From positions 1 through 54,410 of the forward strand of contig JAQXAY010000081.1 in assembly GCA_029252685.1 (NCBI GenBank): a DNA stretch of 54,410 bases, read 5' to 3'. A model generated the notes under the pieces. That model saw only the letters and a program-made list of their open reading frames with translations. It was not told where the DNA came from and did not search any database. Position 1 is the stretch's first letter, and each line of letters starts with the position of its first letter. This DNA is from Saprospiraceae bacterium (lineage in GTDB: Bacteria; Bacteroidota; Bacteroidia; Chitinophagales; Saprospiraceae). The translations under genes and the position numbers were made by a program. Positions 27,951 through 49,961 of the stretch are shown here, piece after piece.

Positions 27951-29828
27951 ATGAAAAAGATATTGGTGTTTCTTTTGTTCTTCGGATTTGGCCTCCATGC
28001 TGCACTTGGTCAAGCGTCAATTTGTGCAATTGTGGATCATAATGGAGAAGTATTATCAGATGCTCGAGTATATGTGAAATCTAAGCTTGGGATCGAAAGT
28101 TTTTATTTGACAGATTCTATGGGGATTTCAGTAATTAATGGACTAGCTCCAGGTATATATTCCCTATTTATTTCAAATGAGTCAAAAAGCTTGCAAGCGG
28201 AGTTTACTGAAATTAATCTTCAGCCTGGAAGTTTTCTTGTTGAATCTTTTAGCCTTACTTCCGATATAGGAAATAGATACGTAAAAGGAGATAGTGGATG
28301 GGTATTTAATGTAATTGAGGAAGTGGATTCCGACTTCGAGATGGGTGAACCGCTAGGTGCAGTTCCTGCGAGTGCTGTTCTATATGATGAAGTCAGTTAC
28401 TATTCAGAAAGAGAAGAAGTGACAGAGAGTTTGGTTGATGCCGAGGTAGCAAGCATGAAAAAAAAATCAAGAGCAGAAGAATCTATGAGTGGCATACCAG
28501 AGCCGGAACCTGTAGGTGAAGTTCCTAACGAAAGCGCTGGTCAGTTAACGGCATCTGAATGGTCCGATCTTGAAAATTGGGATCTATGGGCAGATCAGAT
28601 TGAAGAGGAATTTGCGGAGTATTCACGTGCTTGGTCTTTAGCACCTAAGTATAGGTCAACCATTCATTTAAGGAATAAGAATGGAGAGAATTTAGTGCAC
28701 GCACTTATTGAGGTTGTAGACCAAACTGGTAAAATATTGGCAAGAGCTCGAACGAATAATAAGGGAGTTTCTGAGTTGTTTTTTGAAGAAGCGCTTGGGA
28801 TAAATAAGAAGGTTCGGATCAATTATATGGGAGAAATATTTACACTCAACAATAAAGAGATTACTAAGGATATGGCACTTGAATTAAGAACAAGGTGCAA
28901 TAATAGTAATGTTGTTGAGATCATGTTCGTAGTAGACGCTACAGGATCTATGGGTGATGAAATAAAATACCTTAAAGCAGAGGTCCAGGATGTTATTAGC
29001 AGAATATCACAGCTTGATGATAAAAAAGAGGTTCGCAGTGGGGCGATATTCTATAGAGATCACACAGATCAATATTTAAGTAGAAGAAAAGAATTGAGTA
29101 CCGATGTTGGTGCCTTGAACACGTTTATTAATGAACAGGCAGCAAATGGAGGTGGAGATTTCCCCGAGGCCTTAGATGTTGCACTAGAGGAGTTGACAAC
29201 AAGTATCAATTGGTCCGCCGAGGCGATTACTAAAATTGCTTTTTTAATACTAGATGCTCCTCCGCACGAAGATTCTATTTCCGTACAACGAATAAATGAG
29301 AGTGTTATTCGTGCAGCAGAACAAGGTATTCGACTAATTCCAGTAACGGGTTCAGGAATAAATAAAAGTACAGAGTATTTGATGAAAGCGCTCTCCATAA
29401 GTACAAACGGAACATATCTATATCTTACAGATGATTCAGGTATAGGAAATAAACATCTAGAGGCTTCTAATGATAAGTCAGATGTTGAGTTTCTGAATGA
29501 TCTAATGGTCCGAGTAGTGGAAGAAATGATTGAATTGGATTGTTTTGAAGCGAGCAATAATCAAGATGTAGTAGTGAATGATTGGAACAACACAATAGGA
29601 TTGAATGTCTACCCAAATCCTGCTACGGATTATTTGAATATTGAATTGGCTCAGGCTATTGATCAGGCTCAAATTCTCGATCTTCAGGGTAAGGTAGTCC
29701 AAGACCTTGGGCAATTGGATATGGGGAGTCACCAATTCGATGTAAGTGGTTTAAAGTCTGGGATTTATTTTGTTGTATTTAAAAATAAGTCAGAGTCTTT
29801 CTCGCTCAAATTGGTATGTGCACGATAA
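27951..29828 (+). CDS. Secreted VWA-domain protein with T9SS type A sorting domain
   Basis: This 625-residue exported protein has a signal peptide with predicted cleavage ALG20|Q21. Two carboxypeptidase-regulatory-like beta modules follow, about residues 25-95 and 235-300, separated by an acidic low-complexity linker. A von Willebrand A domain (about 322-510) carries a MIDAS metal motif D329-A-T-G-S333 with further elements GGGDFPEALD and ILDAPPHED. The last 80 residues are a T9SS type A domain (LNVYPNPATDYLNIEL ... GIYFVVF), so the protein should cross the outer membrane by the type IX system and be released or attached to the cell surface. A role in binding proteins or surfaces is inferred. 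It is transcribed divergently from purH. Confidence 0.85.
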   Translation: MKKILVFLLFFGFGLHAALGQASICAIVDHNGEVLSDARVYVKSKLGIESFYLTDSMGISVINGLAPGIYSLFISNESKSLQAEFTEINLQPGSFLVESFSLTSDIGNRYVKGDSGWVFNVIEEVDSDFEMGEPLGAVPASAVLYDEVSYYSEREEVTESLVDAEVASMKKKSRAEESMSGIPEPEPVGEVPNESAGQLTASEWSDLENWDLWADQIEEEFAEYSRAWSLAPKYRSTIHLRNKNGENLVHALIEVVDQTGKILARARTNNKGVSELFFEEALGINKKVRINYMGEIFTLNNKEITKDMALELRTRCNNSNVVEIMFVVDATGSMGDEIKYLKAEVQDVISRISQLDDKKEVRSGAIFYRDHTDQYLSRRKELSTDVGALNTFINEQAANGGGDFPEALDVALEELTTSINWSAEAITKIAFLILDAPPHEDSISVQRINESVIRAAEQGIRLIPVTGSGINKSTEYLMKALSISTNGTYLYLTDDSGIGNKHLEASNDKSDVEFLNDLMVRVVEEMIELDCFEASNNQDVVVNDWNNTIGLNVYPNPATDYLNIELAQAIDQAQILDLQGKVVQDLGQLDMGSHQFDVSGLKSGIYFVVFKNKSESFSLKLVCAR

Positions 29829-31774: not shown

Positions 31775-33553
31775 ATGGGAAAATTTGTTGTTTCAGCTCG
31801 TAAATATAGACCAAACAGATTTGTAGATGTTGTAGGTCAAGAACATGTGTCACAGACCTTGAAGAACGCTCTTCAAAATGACCACCTTGCGCATGCATTT
31901 CTTTTTTGTGGGCCTAGGGGAGTGGGAAAGACAACTTGTGCACGAATACTCGCAAAGGTCCTGAATTGCACCAATCTTACAGAGGAGAAAGAACCTTGTA
32001 ACGAATGTGAAAGCTGTACTTCTTTTAATAAAAACAACTCATTTAATATTGTAGAACTTGATGCAGCTTCAAATAATAGTGTCGAGCATATTAGAGCATT
32101 AAATGAGCAAGTTCGATTTCAACCTCAACAAGGGGATTATAAAGTCTTTATTATTGATGAGGTTCATATGTTGTCTCAGGCAGCATTCAATGCTTTTTTG
32201 AAAACATTAGAGGAGCCACCAGCGCACGCTGTATTCATTCTGGCTACAACTGAGAAGCATAAGATTATTCCAACTATTTTGTCAAGATGTCAAATATTTG
32301 ATTTTAAACGTATTCAGATTAAGCGCATAGTTGGCCATTTACAAAGTATTTGTGATCAAGAAAATATTCAAGCAGAGGAAGATGCTTTGCACATTATAGC
32401 TCAAAAAGCAGATGGAGCACTCCGAGATGCGCTTTCCATTTTTGATAGGATAGTAAGTTATTCAGGAGATTCGATAAAGTACGCGGATGTAATAAGCAAT
32501 CTAAATGTATTAGATCACGACTATTTCTTTAAGTTCGTTGATGCTATGCTTGTAGAAGACATGCCTCAGGTTTTACTTCTATTTAATGAGGTTTTAGACA
32601 AAGGCTTCGAAGGCGATATATTTATTACTGGTCTTTCAGAGCACCTAAGAGATCTCCTTGTTTGTAAGGATAAGGAAAGTTTGGCCCTTCTAGAATGTAG
32701 TGAAAACCTTAGGACGAGATATATGGATCAGGCAAACACAGCCTCTGCTTCATTTTTGTTGTCAGCACTTCAGTTAGCAACAGCAACTGATATAGGGTAT
32801 AAGCAAGCTAGGAATAAGCGATTATTGGTAGAGGTTATGCTTATGAAGATTAGTAATTTAAGCAGTATCCTTGAAGCTTCCATCACTGGGCCAGTGCTAA
32901 TTAGTGAAAAAAAAAAGATTGATACCAAAATAGCTCAGGATGAAGTGCAGGTAGAGCATAAAGAAACGCCTGTAGAAAATGAAGCTGCCAAAACTGTCTC
33001 TGCACCAAAGGAAGAACTGGAAGACAAAATAGAACAAAAGCCAATTGAAGAGGCTACCGTGAATCCTGTTCAGGAAGCTAGTCCAAAAAAGAAAAAGCTT
33101 AAACTTTCAATAGGTAAGTTATCTAGTCTAGAGTCCCTTGATAAGGAAATAGAGCAAATTAAAGAAGAATCCTATCGTTCTGTAAAAGAAATTTCACTTG
33201 AAGAGCTAAGCAAATACTGGCATGAATACTCAGAAAATTTAGATTCTGACATAATAAAACAGAGTTTAAGGGCTGCAGACTTGTCTTTATATGATAATTT
33301 TTTGAATATTAAGGTAGCATCCAACCTTCAGCGAGCAGATATTGAAAAGGAGAAGGAACTTATGGTTTTTATCCGTAAATCATTAAATGTAAAAGATCTT
33401 CAATTGAAGATCGAAGTTGAAGCAAAGGTGCAAGACACTAAACCGGTAATCAAAAAGAACTTGACTGTTAAGGAAAGGTATTTGCAAATGAGGGAGGTTA
33501 ACCCCAAACTTACTGCTTTGCAAAAACGATTTTCTTTGATGCCGGACGAATAG
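31775..33553 (+). CDS. dnaX: DNA polymerase III subunits tau (and probably gamma)
   Basis: DnaX is the motor of the clamp loader that places the sliding clamp on DNA. The 592-residue protein has Walker A GPRGVGKT (46-53), a zinc site of four cysteines (C65, C75, C78, C81), Walker B IIDEVHMLS, and sensor 1 around LATTEKHKIIPTILSRC with the SRC arginine finger. Domains I-III end near residue 375. An acidic and Lys-rich linker of about 90 residues follows, then a short C-terminal tau region (about 490-592). At codons 378-381 an A10-G run forms an in-frame slippery site (see separate entry), so a 382-residue gamma-like product is likely. A Crp/Fnr gene follows 15 bases later. Confidence 0.94.
   Translation: MGKFVVSARKYRPNRFVDVVGQEHVSQTLKNALQNDHLAHAFLFCGPRGVGKTTCARILAKVLNCTNLTEEKEPCNECESCTSFNKNNSFNIVELDAASNNSVEHIRALNEQVRFQPQQGDYKVFIIDEVHMLSQAAFNAFLKTLEEPPAHAVFILATTEKHKIIPTILSRCQIFDFKRIQIKRIVGHLQSICDQENIQAEEDALHIIAQKADGALRDALSIFDRIVSYSGDSIKYADVISNLNVLDHDYFFKFVDAMLVEDMPQVLLLFNEVLDKGFEGDIFITGLSEHLRDLLVCKDKESLALLECSENLRTRYMDQANTASASFLLSALQLATATDIGYKQARNKRLLVEVMLMKISNLSSILEASITGPVLISEKKKIDTKIAQDEVQVEHKETPVENEAAKTVSAPKEELEDKIEQKPIEEATVNPVQEASPKKKKLKLSIGKLSSLESLDKEIEQIKEESYRSVKEISLEELSKYWHEYSENLDSDIIKQSLRAADLSLYDNFLNIKVASNLQRADIEKEKELMVFIRKSLNVKDLQLKIEVEAKVQDTKPVIKKNLTVKERYLQMREVNPKLTALQKRFSLMPDE
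32907..32922 (+). promoter_or_regulatory. Probable programmed slippage site in dnaX (tau/gamma switch)
   Basis: Ten A bases (32907-32916) followed by G encode E378-K-K-K381 as GAA AAA AAA AAG. The last seven bases, read A AAA AAG, are the strongest -1 slippery heptamer known from E. coli dnaX. After a -1 slip the next codons are GAT and TGA (32917-32922), so translation ends at residue 382. A +1 shift also ends within five codons, at a TAG. A CACTG/CAGTG hairpin lies just upstream (32884-32896); I see no strong downstream stem. The run could equally work by transcriptional slippage, as in Thermus dnaX. Confidence 0.65.
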
Positions 33554-33568
33554 ACACTAAATCGAGAG

Positions 33569-34288
33569 ATGCCCATAACAAATATAATCGGTATGGGATA
33601 TTGGAATGAAAACATGAGTACTAATTTTTTGGCGTATTTCGAAAAGGAACAAATACAAAATTCCTTGTTTGAAGAACATACGCTTAGCAAAGGCGCAATT
33701 CTTTATAACGTTGCGGAACTTGCAGATAAAATATTCTTTGTGAAATCTGGAGCCTTCAAAGCAGAATGTAGCTATCCTTCTGGGCGAAAATTTATAAAGG
33801 AAATATATGCACAAGGCGAAATTTTTGGGGAGCTAGCGCTCTTTAATGCCTACTATCTTGAGACTTCTATAGCAATCGAAAAGTCTGTAGTCCTTTCCAT
33901 TGAAAAGAATGATTTTAAACGCTTGATGGCAGAACGACTGCATGTAAATTCGATGATCAATATGTTGATTGGTCAACGCAGGATACAACTTGAAAAGCGA
34001 TTTGAAAATCTTATTTTTAAGGACAGCAAAACTCGTGTAGTCGAGTTTCTTTTAATGCTTGCGGATCAAAAAGGTCGAGCAGTCGGCTTTGAGAAGGAAG
34101 TCAAGATTAATCTTACTCACCAAGATATAGCTCGTATTAATTTTACTTCTAGGCAGAAAGTTACTATCCTAATGAATGAGCTAAAGTCCAAAAAAATTAT
34201 ATCTTTCAATCGAAGACGAATTTTATTTAGGGATTTAGATCAATTAAGGACAGAACTAAATCCAGCTATGATGATGACCAGTGAGTAA
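33569..34288 (+). CDS. Crp/Fnr-family transcriptional regulator
   Basis: This 239-residue protein has a cyclic-nucleotide-binding-type sensory domain (about residues 30-130) with SGAFKAECSYPSGRKFIKEIYAQGEIFGELALF, a long dimerisation helix, and a C-terminal winged helix-turn-helix (about 170-225) with THQDIARINFTSRQKVTILMNELKSKKII. The sensory pocket keeps GEIFGELALF but lacks the RxS arginine-serine pair needed for classical cAMP binding, so the signal is unknown. No FNR-type cysteines cluster at the N-terminus. The start is uncertain: ATG at 33569, 33593 or 33614 would all leave the domain intact. Its end overlaps the helicase gene by 8 bases. Confidence 0.85.
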   Translation: MPITNIIGMGYWNENMSTNFLAYFEKEQIQNSLFEEHTLSKGAILYNVAELADKIFFVKSGAFKAECSYPSGRKFIKEIYAQGEIFGELALFNAYYLETSIAIEKSVVLSIEKNDFKRLMAERLHVNSMINMLIGQRRIQLEKRFENLIFKDSKTRVVEFLLMLADQKGRAVGFEKEVKINLTHQDIARINFTSRQKVTILMNELKSKKIISFNRRRILFRDLDQLRTELNPAMMMTSE

Positions 34289-37200
34289 AAAAAAAACATT
34301 CCAAAAGGCACTTGAGGCACTTAATGAGAAGCAAAAAGAGGCTGTTAGTAAGCTAGATGGACCAATGATATTATTGGCAGGTCCAGGAACTGGGAAAACT
34401 CATGTTCTAGCTGCTCGTGTCGGGCATATATTGAAATCTACTGATACCGGCGCAGAACACATCTTATGTCTTACTTATACAGACGCCGGAGCACACGCCA
34501 TGAGAAGTAGGTTGTTGGAGTGGATAGGTCCCGAAGCACATCGGATCACTATAAGTACATTTCATTCTTTCTGTAATGGTGTCATTCAGGAACATTCTGC
34601 CCTATTTGGTCATTATGATCTGCAACCCGTAACAGAATTAGAACGGATAAAAATTATTCGCTCAATCATTGATGGCTTAGATAAAAACCACCTCCTTCGT
34701 AAGAATAATCTTTATAGATATGTCAATGAAAAAGGACTCTCTGTTCTTTTTAAGCTGATGAAGCAAGAAGGCTGGGATTTTGATTATGTACGAGGTGGAG
34801 TTTATAAATACCTAGATGGACTTAAAAGTAATCCTGAATTTATTTATAAGCGTAAGACAGGAACGTACAAAAAGGGGGACCTTAAACTCGATCGAATAGA
34901 AAAAGAGACGAAAAAGATGGAACGCCTCCTTGCGCTATCCTCATGCTATCCAAGATACATGGAGTTGATGCGTGAAGCCAGGCGGTATGAATATGATGAC
35001 ATGATCCTTTGGGTCTTAAATGCATTCAAGGAAAACAAAGACTTACTAAGTGCTTATCAAGAAAAATATCTCTATTTCTTGGTCGATGAATACCAAGATA
35101 CCAACGGAGCTCAGGAAAAGTTACTACAATTATTGTCTGGATATTGGGAGAAGCCTAACCTCTTTGTAGTTGGGGATGATGACCAAGCAATTTATGAATT
35201 TCAAGGTGCAAAACTTGATAATCTTATCGATCTGTACAAGAGATTCGAAGATAGTATTGATATTATTGCACTCAAGGAGAATTACAGATCTAATCAACAG
35301 ATTCTCGATGCATCCTTTAAGCTGATAGAACACAATGAAGAGCGAGCTGTAAACCTTATTCAATCGGTTGCTCTGGATAAACGGCTTAGTGCAGCTCTTG
35401 AGGATCGGTCTAAGGATGAAGATGCACTTCACGTCCATCGGTATCCAAATACGATACAAGAAAACATCGGTGTTTTTAACCAGATAAAATCCCTGGTTGA
35501 TGGTGGCGTAAATCCTGCAGAGATTGCGGTTATTTATACCCAGCATAAGTACGGTGAGTCCATCCGGATGCTGCTCCAGCAAGAGCAGATTCCCTACCAA
35601 TCTAAACGAAAAATCAATGTCCTTAACGAAGCTAATGTAATTCAGATTAGAACTGAGTTAGAGTTTTTTAATGACCGCCTGAATAGTCCGAGAAAAGCTT
35701 TAGAGCTTTTACCTCGGATTCTTATTCACCCGCATTGGGGGGTTCAAATGGATGATGTTAGGGTATTGATCGGATTGAATAAGAATATTAGTGCTACGGA
35801 TAGCCATACAGCTTATATACGATTGAAGGCCTATATTGTTGACCATCCCGAAGCGTTTGTTCGCCAAGATCTTCTTTTGCAAGCTATTGAAAAGATAGAG
35901 CAGATAGAAGCAGTTTTAAGAGAGGGGCATTTGCTGCGTTTTGTCATGCGTTTTATGCAGCAATCCAATTGGGTGAATTATATACTGGATAGTCCCGAAA
36001 ATCAGTGGGACTTTAATGTATTAAATAGTTTTTGGTCCTTTATAAAAGAAAGCATAGAAGGTAATCCTGCCTTGAATTTAGAAGGGCTACTAGATACGCT
36101 TGAAGAATTAGATTCTAATGGCTTAAGTATTGACTACATAAAGGTTGAATTTGCTGATAATGGAGTTAATTTATTGACAGCTCATGGTGCTAAAGGTCTT
36201 GAGTTTAGTTACGTGTTTTTAATTAACTGTACGGATGATGCTTGGGAAAAATCAAGGCAAGTGGGCGGCTTGTTTTCAATTCCTGCTGAGCTATATCAGC
36301 AAAGTGCAGTTGTTGATTTTGAACGACAGAATGATCAGGTTTATAGAACAGAGGGAAAAAGAAGGCTGTTTTATGTGGCATTGACAAGAGCTAAGCAGAG
36401 AGTTATATTCTCTTATGCTGGGAAAAACCTCAAAGAAAAGAATCAAACTCTAAGCTTGTTCCTTTCGGAGATTGTTGCAGATCAAGGATTGACGATTCTG
36501 GAGAAGCAAGTTGCAAAAGAGGAGATAAATGCATTTGTGATGCAAGAAATGCTTGGCTTTGATCTGCGTCTAAATCGATTATTTGATGCGAATTGGATCA
36601 AGCAACGCATTCAAGAACTCAAGCTTAGTGCAAGTAGCTTAAGGGCTTATCTTGAGTGCAAGCGAACTTTCTTTTTTGAATATATTCTTGGTTTAACTTC
36701 AATCCCAAATGTACATGCAGTTTTTGGCCAGGTGGCCCATGAGACACTAAATCAATTATTGGTATTTGTTGGTGATGAGCAAATAGAAATTAGTGCTAAG
36801 CTTGTGAATAATACATTTGCGAAAGTCGCTGAAAAAAGTCGCTATCTTCTGAATGATAAATCATTTGAGGATTTACTTTCCAAGGGCAACGAGATCCTTC
36901 CTTCGTTTTGGGCTTATACAGCCAAGGGGATTTCAGCGGAATCAAAAGGAGAGTTACCCGTAAAAGCTTATTTAGATAAGATGATTCCGATTTATGGCAA
37001 ACTTGACCGGTTTGATAAAATTGATAATACTTTTAGTCGAATTATTGATTATAAATCGTCTCGAAAAACTTCAAAGCTTAGGGTGGCAAAGTCGGATGAC
37101 TATGGTGGAGTTTATTGGTTTCAAATGCTCTTCTATAAGGTATTGATGGAAGCGTCAAGCCTCATGAAACACGCCAATATCGAACTTAGAATAGAATATC

Positions 37201-37439
37201 TGGACGATTCCAAAAAATCTGAACAAGTTGATTTCGATTCGGACAAACTAGAGTTTTCAATTGACCAGGTCGAATGGATGAGATTACTGATCAAAAATTC
37301 TTATGATGAGATATTGAAAGAAGATTTCAGGGCACGTTGTGAGGACACTAGTTGCAAGTGGTGTAGCTTGAAAGTTAAATCGGAATCTGAAATAAGTATT
37401 TTCGAAAGTCAATTCAAGGACTCCTTTGATGAGTCATGA
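34281..37439 (+). CDS. UvrD/Rep-family DNA helicase fused to a PD-(D/E)XK nuclease with an AddB-like iron-sulfur site
   Basis: This 1052-residue protein starts at GTG 34281, overlapping the regulator gene by 8 bases (GTGAGTAAA). Superfamily 1A helicase motifs are complete: I GPGTGKT (34-40), II VDEYQDTN, III GDDDQAIYEFQGA, V TAHGAKGLEFSYVFL, VI RRLFYVALTRAKQRVIF. The C-terminal third (about 785-1040) is a RecB-type nuclease with LSASSLRAYLECKRTFFF, FGQVAHETL, GKLDRFDK and the catalytic IIDYKSSR. Cysteines C793, C1020, C1025 and C1028 frame the nuclease fold as in AddB and Cas4, so a [4Fe-4S] cluster is likely. Probable role: DNA end processing or recombination repair. No AddA/AddB-type partner gene is adjacent. 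Confidence 0.88.
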   Translation: MSKKKTFQKALEALNEKQKEAVSKLDGPMILLAGPGTGKTHVLAARVGHILKSTDTGAEHILCLTYTDAGAHAMRSRLLEWIGPEAHRITISTFHSFCNGVIQEHSALFGHYDLQPVTELERIKIIRSIIDGLDKNHLLRKNNLYRYVNEKGLSVLFKLMKQEGWDFDYVRGGVYKYLDGLKSNPEFIYKRKTGTYKKGDLKLDRIEKETKKMERLLALSSCYPRYMELMREARRYEYDDMILWVLNAFKENKDLLSAYQEKYLYFLVDEYQDTNGAQEKLLQLLSGYWEKPNLFVVGDDDQAIYEFQGAKLDNLIDLYKRFEDSIDIIALKENYRSNQQILDASFKLIEHNEERAVNLIQSVALDKRLSAALEDRSKDEDALHVHRYPNTIQENIGVFNQIKSLVDGGVNPAEIAVIYTQHKYGESIRMLLQQEQIPYQSKRKINVLNEANVIQIRTELEFFNDRLNSPRKALELLPRILIHPHWGVQMDDVRVLIGLNKNISATDSHTAYIRLKAYIVDHPEAFVRQDLLLQAIEKIEQIEAVLREGHLLRFVMRFMQQSNWVNYILDSPENQWDFNVLNSFWSFIKESIEGNPALNLEGLLDTLEELDSNGLSIDYIKVEFADNGVNLLTAHGAKGLEFSYVFLINCTDDAWEKSRQVGGLFSIPAELYQQSAVVDFERQNDQVYRTEGKRRLFYVALTRAKQRVIFSYAGKNLKEKNQTLSLFLSEIVADQGLTILEKQVAKEEINAFVMQEMLGFDLRLNRLFDANWIKQRIQELKLSASSLRAYLECKRTFFFEYILGLTSIPNVHAVFGQVAHETLNQLLVFVGDEQIEISAKLVNNTFAKVAEKSRYLLNDKSFEDLLSKGNEILPSFWAYTAKGISAESKGELPVKAYLDKMIPIYGKLDRFDKIDNTFSRIIDYKSSRKTSKLRVAKSDDYGGVYWFQMLFYKVLMEASSLMKHANIELRIEYLDDSKKSEQVDFDSDKLEFSIDQVEWMRLLIKNSYDEILKEDFRARCEDTSCKWCSLKVKSESEISIFESQFKDSFDES

Positions 37440-48698: not shown

Positions 48699-48851
48699 GG
48701 ATAAAGGTCGTTTAAATGGATATAATGATTTTCAAATTAATTAAATAGCTTTTAATCAAAATCACAAAATTTATACAAAAAAAGCTATAAAAGGTTTAAT
48801 ATAGTCTTTTGCTTTGTTCTTATAATTTTATCCTTAAAGAGCTTTGAACGC

Positions 48852-49961
48852 ATGCAGTTTACAGATTTTCCAGGTCAAGAGAGTGCAATACAGTTGTTAA
48901 AAGGAATGTTATCAGCAGATCGTCTGCCACATGCCCTTTTATTTGTTGGTCCTGAAGGCTGTGGAAAGTTAGGTGTTGCGCTTAGCTTAGCTCAATCAAT
49001 TTTGTGTAAGGAAGTAGATAGTGAACACCATGCATGCGGAGTTTGTAATCAATGCTTAAAAAGTAAAAAACTTCAGCATCCCGATCTTCATTTCTCGTTT
49101 CCTTATGTCGGTAAAGAGTATAGGTCAGATGACTTTGTAAAGGATTGGAAGGAAGCTGTGCTTGAAAACCCTTATCTTAATTATGATCTTTGGTCTTCTA
49201 TACTCAAAGTAGATAACAAGCAAGGGAATATTTATAAGAGTGAATGTGTTAACATTATAAAGAAGCTCAGTTTTAAGCGTTATGAAGGTGCCAAGAAGAT
49301 AATGATTATCTGGATGGCAGAGTTTCTGGGAACAGAGGGAAACAGATTATTGAAATTAATTGAAGAACCACCGGAGGATACACAGTTTATTCTAATTGCG
49401 GAACAAACAGAAAAGGTATTAAATACAATTTTGTCCCGGTGTCAACTAATAAAGTTTAATAAAATTTCTGATATTGCCCTTAGTAAATATCTGGCATCCA
49501 GATATGGAATGAGTGAAGAGCGAGCAAAAGAGGTTGCTTTTTTCTCTAATGGCAATATGCTTGATGCTATTTCTAGTATCGAGCAGGTAGGAAAAGGGGA
49601 GTTTGATCTTTTTATTGACTGGCTTAGAAAGACCTATCAAGGAAAACCGGTAGATCTTGTTAAGATAGCAGAGGAGATCGCGAGCCTAGGAAAGGATGCA
49701 ATTAAGCAAGTGTTTAGCTATGGCTTACAATTTTTAGCTGAGATTAATCGGCTTAAAATATTAGGACCTAAACATTCAAGATTAAACGGTAAGACGCTCG
49801 AATCAGCTGAAAAGCTAAAGAATCTATTGGATCTAAATGCGATTGAAAAAATGCAGGATCTATTAAATGAGTCTTCTTATTATCTTGAACGTAATGCAAA
49901 TGCAAAGTTGCTTATTTTGAACATGGGCATTCAAATGAATGCTATTTTTAGAATGAGGTAA
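48852..49961 (+). CDS. holB: DNA polymerase III delta-prime subunit
   Basis: Delta-prime is the stator of the clamp loader and works with DnaX, which is also encoded in this window. The 369-residue AAA+ protein begins FPGQESAIQLLKGML and LPHALLFVGPEGCGKLGVAL. The P-loop lacks the Thr/Ser after the Lys (GKL), in keeping with a subunit that does not hydrolyse ATP. A zinc site follows (C58-region, CGVCNQC), and then KLIEEPPEDTQFILIAEQ and TILSRCQ. Pairing with the PSP1 gene 25 bases downstream mirrors Bacillus, where holB and yaaT (ricT) are neighbours. Confidence 0.9.
   Translation: MQFTDFPGQESAIQLLKGMLSADRLPHALLFVGPEGCGKLGVALSLAQSILCKEVDSEHHACGVCNQCLKSKKLQHPDLHFSFPYVGKEYRSDDFVKDWKEAVLENPYLNYDLWSSILKVDNKQGNIYKSECVNIIKKLSFKRYEGAKKIMIIWMAEFLGTEGNRLLKLIEEPPEDTQFILIAEQTEKVLNTILSRCQLIKFNKISDIALSKYLASRYGMSEERAKEVAFFSNGNMLDAISSIEQVGKGEFDLFIDWLRKTYQGKPVDLVKIAEEIASLGKDAIKQVFSYGLQFLAEINRLKILGPKHSRLNGKTLESAEKLKNLLDLNAIEKMQDLLNESSYYLERNANAKLLILNMGIQMNAIFRMR

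Follow-up and report, generated by a model that had tools for sequence, protein, structure and literature searches.

A conserved A10 run in dnaX of a Saprospiraceae bacterium as a probable site of programmed transcriptional slippage

The subject of this analysis is the dnaX gene, encoding the gamma and tau subunits of DNA polymerase III, that lies on a 54,410-nucleotide contig of a Saprospiraceae bacterium (GenBank assembly GCA_029252685.1, contig JAQXAY010000081.1, positions 1 to 54,410), hereafter referred to as the window. Judging from sequence comparisons across the family and the class, a run of ten adenosines (A10) within this gene is in all likelihood a programmed transcriptional slippage site of the Thermus dnaX type, giving both gamma and tau. 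In the proposed mechanism, RNA polymerase would stutter on the A10 run and thereby produce messages that differ in their number of As. Those with ten As, or with three more or three fewer, would specify tau (592 residues, or one residue more or less). All other messages would encounter a -1 or +1 stop codon no more than 17 nt from the run, and the result would be a gamma-type protein of approximately 381-386 residues and ∼42 kDa that retains domain III along with the ATPase domains and is devoid of the tau C-terminus. Slippage at the run very probably allows one gene to specify two proteins, one short and one long. We infer that it is RNA polymerase that slips, that gamma builds up in the cell, and that the clamp loader is where it functions. 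The relevant features of the gene, all on the + strand, are the following.

31775..33553, + strand: dnaX, DNA polymerase III gamma/tau, with tau in frame 0 (592 codons, 592 residues; assigned from profile matches)
31775..32905, + strand: gamma-coding part, codons 1-377 (AAA+, lid, domain III), delineated from Pfam and the position of the run
32884..32896, + strand: short hairpin CACTGGGCCAGTG just upstream of the A10 run, not conserved in relatives
32907..32916, + strand: A10 run, the putative slippage site (A9-A11 is found in 105 of the 110 loci from the family and in 88 of the 105 from the class)
32917..33553, + strand: tau-specific linker and C-terminal part (homologous C-terminus in another frame in two-ORF relatives, according to a tau C-terminal hidden Markov model)
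32920..32922, + strand: -1 frame stop TGA (predicted products of 382 residues from an 11-A message and 381 from an 8-A message)
32931..32933, + strand: +1 frame stop TAG (predicted products of 385 residues from a 9-A message and 386 from a 12-A message)

The identity of the gene is clear from its profile matches (TIGR02397 dnaX_nterm, 1.3e-133; NF011531, 1.6e-209). It is a regular gamma/tau gene in which tau is encoded by a single open reading frame (ORF) of 592 codons, and a message with ten As accordingly specifies 592 residues. Codons 378-383 read GAA AAA AAA AAG ATT GAT, such that the heptamer A AAA AAG lies in frame, as had been stated in an earlier sequence-only reading of this DNA. That reading had also placed a -1 stop one residue past the slip, ending a product of 382 residues right after domain III. 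Both points hold: the TGA is at 32920-32922, the 382 residues correspond to an 11-A message, and domain III as defined by Pfam ends at residue 366, with the run just downstream. Missing from it were the +1 stop TAG at 32931-32933 and another A AAA AAG in frame, at 33085-33091, which is followed by a -1 stop three codons later. The second heptamer is absent from the corresponding position in both congeners examined, and for that reason it was set down to chance and rejected as a site.

Conservation within the family Saprospiraceae was assessed with 110 dnaX genomes, the window and two congeners included, drawn from the 273 with a match among 298 genomes. Thirty of these were given as loci, 60 were taken nearly in rank order, and 20 were lower-ranked, many of them picked because the match or the frame was short. 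In the overall locus set, loci identical over N-terminal residues 21-340 were counted once, which reduced 327 loci to 311. Excluded from all counts were L002-L006, which are other AAA proteins, and L196, a duplicate of the window; L007-L086 were the source of the control lineages without runs and entered neither the family nor the class counts, and L354-L357 lay outside the analysis. In L015, from the cultured Saprospiraceae isolate Phaeodactylibacter luteus KCTC 42180, the run is A9, while Portibacter lacus (L030) has nothing longer than A6 in its linker. A run is present in 105 of the 110 family loci, with nine As in 77, ten in 27, and eleven in one, and it starts at codons 370-395. The five loci without a run of at least eight As (L144, L152, L159, L160, and L165) have a longest run of seven or fewer, and a length of eight was never observed. 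The codons flanking the runs vary, except for those that carry the stops, and the base that follows the run is C in 72 loci, G in 21, and T in 12. The run lies in phase 1 in 101 loci and in phases 0 and 2 in two loci each, where it specifies other peptides.

For the analysis of the stop codons, L176, in which tau is split between two ORFs, and L179 were excluded, and the remaining 103 genes were compared with 2000 codon shuffles. A -1 stop occurs within 13 nt in 102 of the 103 genes (shuffle mean 37.1, maximum 57), and a +1 stop within 33 nt likewise in 102 (shuffle mean 40.7, maximum 55). In the exceptional genes the stop is found at 22 nt in the -1 test and at 258 nt in the +1 test. Indeed, when only 32 family representatives less than 80% identical are considered, both stops are present in all 32 (shuffle means 13.3 and 13.5, maxima 24 and 22). 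There was no such enrichment at a pseudo-site 40 codons downstream in the same 103 genes, where the counts of 29 for -1 and 42 for +1 were below the shuffle means. The alignment that had been proposed as a check on the earlier reading thus finds the A-run and the -1 stop kept (105/110 and 102/103, respectively) while the flanking codons vary; relatives encoding the lysines with mixed AAG/AAA codons or lacking the -1 stop, which it had named as telling against a site, are not the pattern encountered, and no refutation came from the sequences. Note that L179 has an A10 run and both stops, yet also a frame-0 stop 70 nt past the run, which may reflect a second indel, decay, or an assembly error.

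The heptamer itself fares differently. It had been put forward as an E. coli-like working element, but no more than 12 of the 105 family runs, and 23 of the 86 class runs described below, contain A AAA AAG, and as a conserved element it was rejected: what is kept instead is nine to eleven As together with stops in both other frames. Thermus-like transcriptional slippage on ten As, which had been raised as a second possibility, fits far better. The suggestion of a gamma-type short subunit is in keeping with the strongly conserved position of the site, which would end DnaX after domain III. In short, the observation of an A-run with a -1 stop in dnaX is confirmed, and its interpretation is partly supported.

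The length of the run is of particular relevance. Across the 215 family and class loci, the longest A-run in the linker is 9-11 in 193, eight in none, seven in four, and less in 18. By simple counting, A AAA AAG requires six to eight As and A AAA AAA seven to nine, depending on phase, with seven and eight being the respective values in the prevailing phase. Selection against A/T runs has been described as evident at nine nucleotides in a large share of genomes (PMC1088944, as far as the accessible text goes). Slippage by RNA polymerase is favored over ribosomal frameshifting because of the run length, the +1 stops, and the lack of stimulators conserved in the family. The +1 stops count in its favor since they would be left unexplained by a -1 ribosomal shift alone. 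Further support is provided by the free base after the run, its variable phase, the moving tau frame, and the similarity to the Thermus design.

Stimulators of the E. coli type, namely a Shine-Dalgarno (SD) sequence and a downstream structure, were sought along with the upstream hairpin, and all were rejected as conserved elements of the family. SD-like 4-mers upstream of the run were found in three of the 32 family representatives, which is the level of shuffled sequences, and the window is not among the matches. The mean folding z-scores of the 32 representatives, the window included, were -0.13 upstream and -0.11 downstream, with controls of -0.24 and -0.21, and in none of the 32 did the downstream value fall below -2. 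In the window, the 60 nt after the run fold with -7.4 kcal/mol into a stem that begins ∼29 nt past the run, and it does not qualify as a stable, close stem-loop. The earlier reading had likewise seen no strong downstream stimulator. The short upstream hairpin that it described is indeed present at 32884-32896, but relatives do not conserve structure upstream of the run and the hairpin is probably incidental.

Throughout the class Bacteroidia, which was sampled evenly, a dnaX match was obtained in 107 of 109 genomes, and 105 loci besides the window were analyzed (G310, with a match of 155 residues, is not among them). Runs of nine As are found in 14, ten in 69, and eleven in five, for a total of 88 of the 105 loci. 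Three of the 17 loci without a run have seven As. Outside of the class, an A-run was observed in nine of the 26 loci analyzed from 59 matched genomes. In L198, one of the three class loci with seven As, codons 368-371 of dnaX contain the A7 (GAA AAA AAC) where the run normally lies, and a -1 stop follows at 9 nt and a +1 stop at 5 nt, in what looks like a decayed slippage site. Two Crocinitomix metagenome-assembled genomes, L037 and L038, have a 372-codon dnaX ORF that ends at about the usual place with no A-run (codons 355-385), and by eye the -1 frame appears to be open for some 90 nt past the stop; the gene may be split, or a different recoding signal may be present. A third Crocinitomix genome, L039, has A10 with tau at -1.

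With L203 and L303 excluded because they are cut by a contig end, 86 run-bearing class loci remain. Here, too, the phase of the run varies. Two frames are closed within 33 nt in 82 of the 86 loci, the second stop of the remaining four being located at 44-74 nt, and the third frame is open for at least 400 nt in all 86. This open frame, which encodes tau, is frame 0 in 59 loci, -1 in 25, and +1 in two. The shifted-frame peptides of the 27 two-ORF genes match a tau C-terminal hidden Markov model, built from one-ORF members of the family, at 7.2e-7 or better, and the two +1 loci do so at 1.1e-17 and 3.3e-22. In the one-ORF class genes, the -1 stop is present in 55 of 59 and the +1 stop in 57 of 59 (shuffle means 22.1 and 27.5, maxima 36 and 41). 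The run, its length of at least nine, and its two flanking stops are thus conserved even as the codons, the phase, and the frame of tau change.

How often they change can be seen from a FastTree phylogeny of 172 N-terminal domains, from which L203, L303, and L318 were omitted (57 of the 169 inner branches are starred and 59 are weak). The minimum on this tree is 21 changes of the tau frame, counted among run-bearing rows, and 20 changes in the presence of the run. Such changes are found between close relatives: in genus g153 tau lies at -1 in two genomes and at 0 in another (L272 versus L274 and L276), and in genus g6, which belongs to the family of the window, L176 (tau at -1) is sister to L155 (tau at 0).

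Several observations weigh against transcriptional slippage at the run. In lineages without a run, two of three pseudo-sites show an excess of +1 stops (44 and 46 of 81 versus ∼25), the count at the third being 28 of 81 versus 21.5; there was no -1 enrichment at these pseudo-sites (8-10 of 81 versus ∼15), and the +1 enrichment may be due to relatedness. The changes between frames 0 and -1 suit efficient -1 ribosomal slippage equally well and are compatible with either mechanism. The two loci with tau at +1 (L215 and L267) agree with slippage rather than with a -1 shift; they are, however, unreplicated and could represent assembly miscounts of the run, since each genus is represented by a single genome. 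Indeed, no second genome of either genus is present in the genome collection searched, G337 has no family relative there, and the one other genome from the family and order of G376 has a one-ORF gene. The site is evidently dispensable in five of the 110 family loci and 17 of the 105 class loci, given that no run is found there. Runs of eight and seven As are described for two-ORF dnaX genes of Chlorobi, so that nine is not a universal floor (PMC3711429, in the part available). Finally, at the class level an SD-like 4-mer lies upstream in 21 of 88 loci, a modest enrichment over the 11.9 of shuffled sequences (two of 1000 shuffles were as high), and folding downstream of the run is slightly stronger than in shuffles (mean z -0.56, control -0.16, with 11 values below -2, for 90 loci without L203, L303, and L311 but with several taken from a phylum sample). 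Upstream folding for these loci gave a z-score of -0.63 (control -0.50). On account of this SD-like enrichment and folding, ribosomes may contribute in some lineages of the class.

The strongest alternative, conceivable though doubtful, is a mixed one that overlaps with transcriptional slippage: RNA polymerase would set most of the gamma and ribosomes would slide on the AAA codons as well. Runs of nine to eleven As do contain a slippery heptamer in every phase, and the sliding of ribosomes on iterated AAA codons is on record (PMC4363877, in its accessible part), but no feature was found in the family that ribosomal slippage alone would select. That programmed -1 ribosomal frameshifting of the E. 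coli type, acting on A AAA AAG/A, is the sole source of gamma, the run being simply a slippery codon pair, is unlikely. The heptamer of the window is in frame, and A AAA AAA or A AAA AAG can be found in all 105 family runs; the AAG form, however, is confined to the 12 noted above, and according to the available text of PMC5009743 both A AAA AAA and A AAA AAC are far less shift-prone than AAG in E. coli. The same source ascribes E. coli-like stimulators to a short-run Chlorobium gene, and the class shows the weak SD-like enrichment and downstream folding just described, but neither structure nor SD is conserved in the family. The two-ORF class genes mostly have tau at -1 (25 versus two at +1), yet the enriched +1 stops remain without a role, and runs of eight and seven As, although sufficient in the prevailing phase, are found in none and four, respectively, of the 215 loci.

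It is very improbable that the frame differences are simply alleles arising from DNA-level phase variation, or homopolymer miscounts in assembly, with no programmed products. Homopolymers are error-prone, many of the genomes are draft assemblies, and both tau +1 loci come from single genomes. Errors, however, would not place stops in both off-frames of 102 of 103 genes, and the two-ORF state recurs in congeners (four genomes of g170, two each of g126 and g153, and three of g155).

As explanations, chance and a lysine-rich peptide conserved against an AT-rich background are already refuted by the conservation tests: although the motif is common locally, the run is unbroken in 105 of 110 family loci in spite of a lysine codon usage of 2719 AAA versus 1626 AAG in the genome sample, runs in phases 0 and 2 encode different peptides, and stops in two frames are enriched. 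The local background was determined from 243,841 bases of this genome, made up of the window and 20 further contigs, in which there are 159 ORFs of 120 codons or more, dnaX being one of them. These ORFs contain 52 in-frame A AAA AAA/G heptamers, 13 of which have a -1 stop within two codons, and the heptamer with its -1 stop in the window is by itself not significant. A-runs of at least nine number four versus ∼8.9 after synonymous shuffling, a weak depletion. The site is taken as real because it is conserved across relatives, and not because of the local pattern.

Three other genes of the window deserve mention. A UvrD-like helicase with a PD-(D/E)XK nuclease domain (34281-37439), two genes after dnaX, has an A10 run from codon 3. 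A VWA protein with a Por secretion tail (27951-29828) has A9 at codon 170, which is among the four runs of at least nine. The region 48825-49586 belongs to a 401-codon open frame with weak similarity to the AAA+ domains of DnaX (segments of 37% and 32% identity), and its product is possibly the delta-prime subunit.

On the evidence of its sequence, the dnaX gene of the window is a member of the Thermus-type programmed transcriptional slippage group, and it opens onto what may be a class-wide, frame-neutral version. We consider it rather probable that dnaX in Bacteroidia is such a frame-neutral gene, in which the gamma and tau portions are linked by a run of nine to eleven As, the other two frames are closed, and tau lies in whichever frame its history has left it (0, -1, or rarely +1). 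In 27 of the 86 run-bearing class loci tau would then be reached only by way of a shift, chromosome replication in these organisms would depend on a programmed polymerase error, and dnaX would be annotated as truncated or broken; many dnaX genes of the class may stand in the databases in that form. Because the run is kept in 88 of the 105 class loci, natural pairs provide a means of testing what gamma does and for what reason the site is missing from the other 17.

Slippage as a mechanism in dnaX is already known; its spread and the frame-neutrality in Bacteroidia were not encountered in the literature searched, nor was any description of dnaX slippage or frameshifting in Bacteroidota found in the open-licence literature searched. 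A 2012 review, in the portion available, holds that most other bacteria lack dnaX frameshift signatures and may not make gamma (PMC3290774), a view with which the retention of the run in 88 of 105 class-wide loci contrasts. Like E. coli dnaX, the gene of the window has A AAA AAG in frame, a -1 stop one codon on, and one ORF, and gamma in E. coli keeps the first three domains (accessible parts of PMC5009743, PMC3711429, and PMC3290774). Unlike E. coli dnaX, there is neither an SD nor a stem-loop conserved in the family, nor is the heptamer conserved; at least nine As and a +1 stop are conserved instead. Antonov et al. (2013) reported 17 dnaX genes from 12 genera with a DNA-level -1 frameshift and proposed slippage; 12 of these have poly-A, with nine having ten As and named Chlorobi species having nine, eight, and seven, one each (PMC3711429, available text). 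Some of the nine A10 species may be Bacteroidota. The two-ORF relatives identified here are of the same kind, whereas the dnaX of the window is a one-ORF gene, and the accessible part of that report contains neither a +1-frame tau nor a class-wide survey. The closest counterpart is dnaX of Thermus thermophilus, whose gamma arises by transcriptional slippage at an A9 run that has stops in the two other frames (PMC1088944 and PMC5009743, available portions). As in Thermus, the window has at least nine As within a single tau ORF and close stops in both other frames, and gamma would share its N-terminal part with tau. Unlike the situation in Thermus, slippage and gamma are here predicted from the sequence, and the relatives of the gene move tau between frames.
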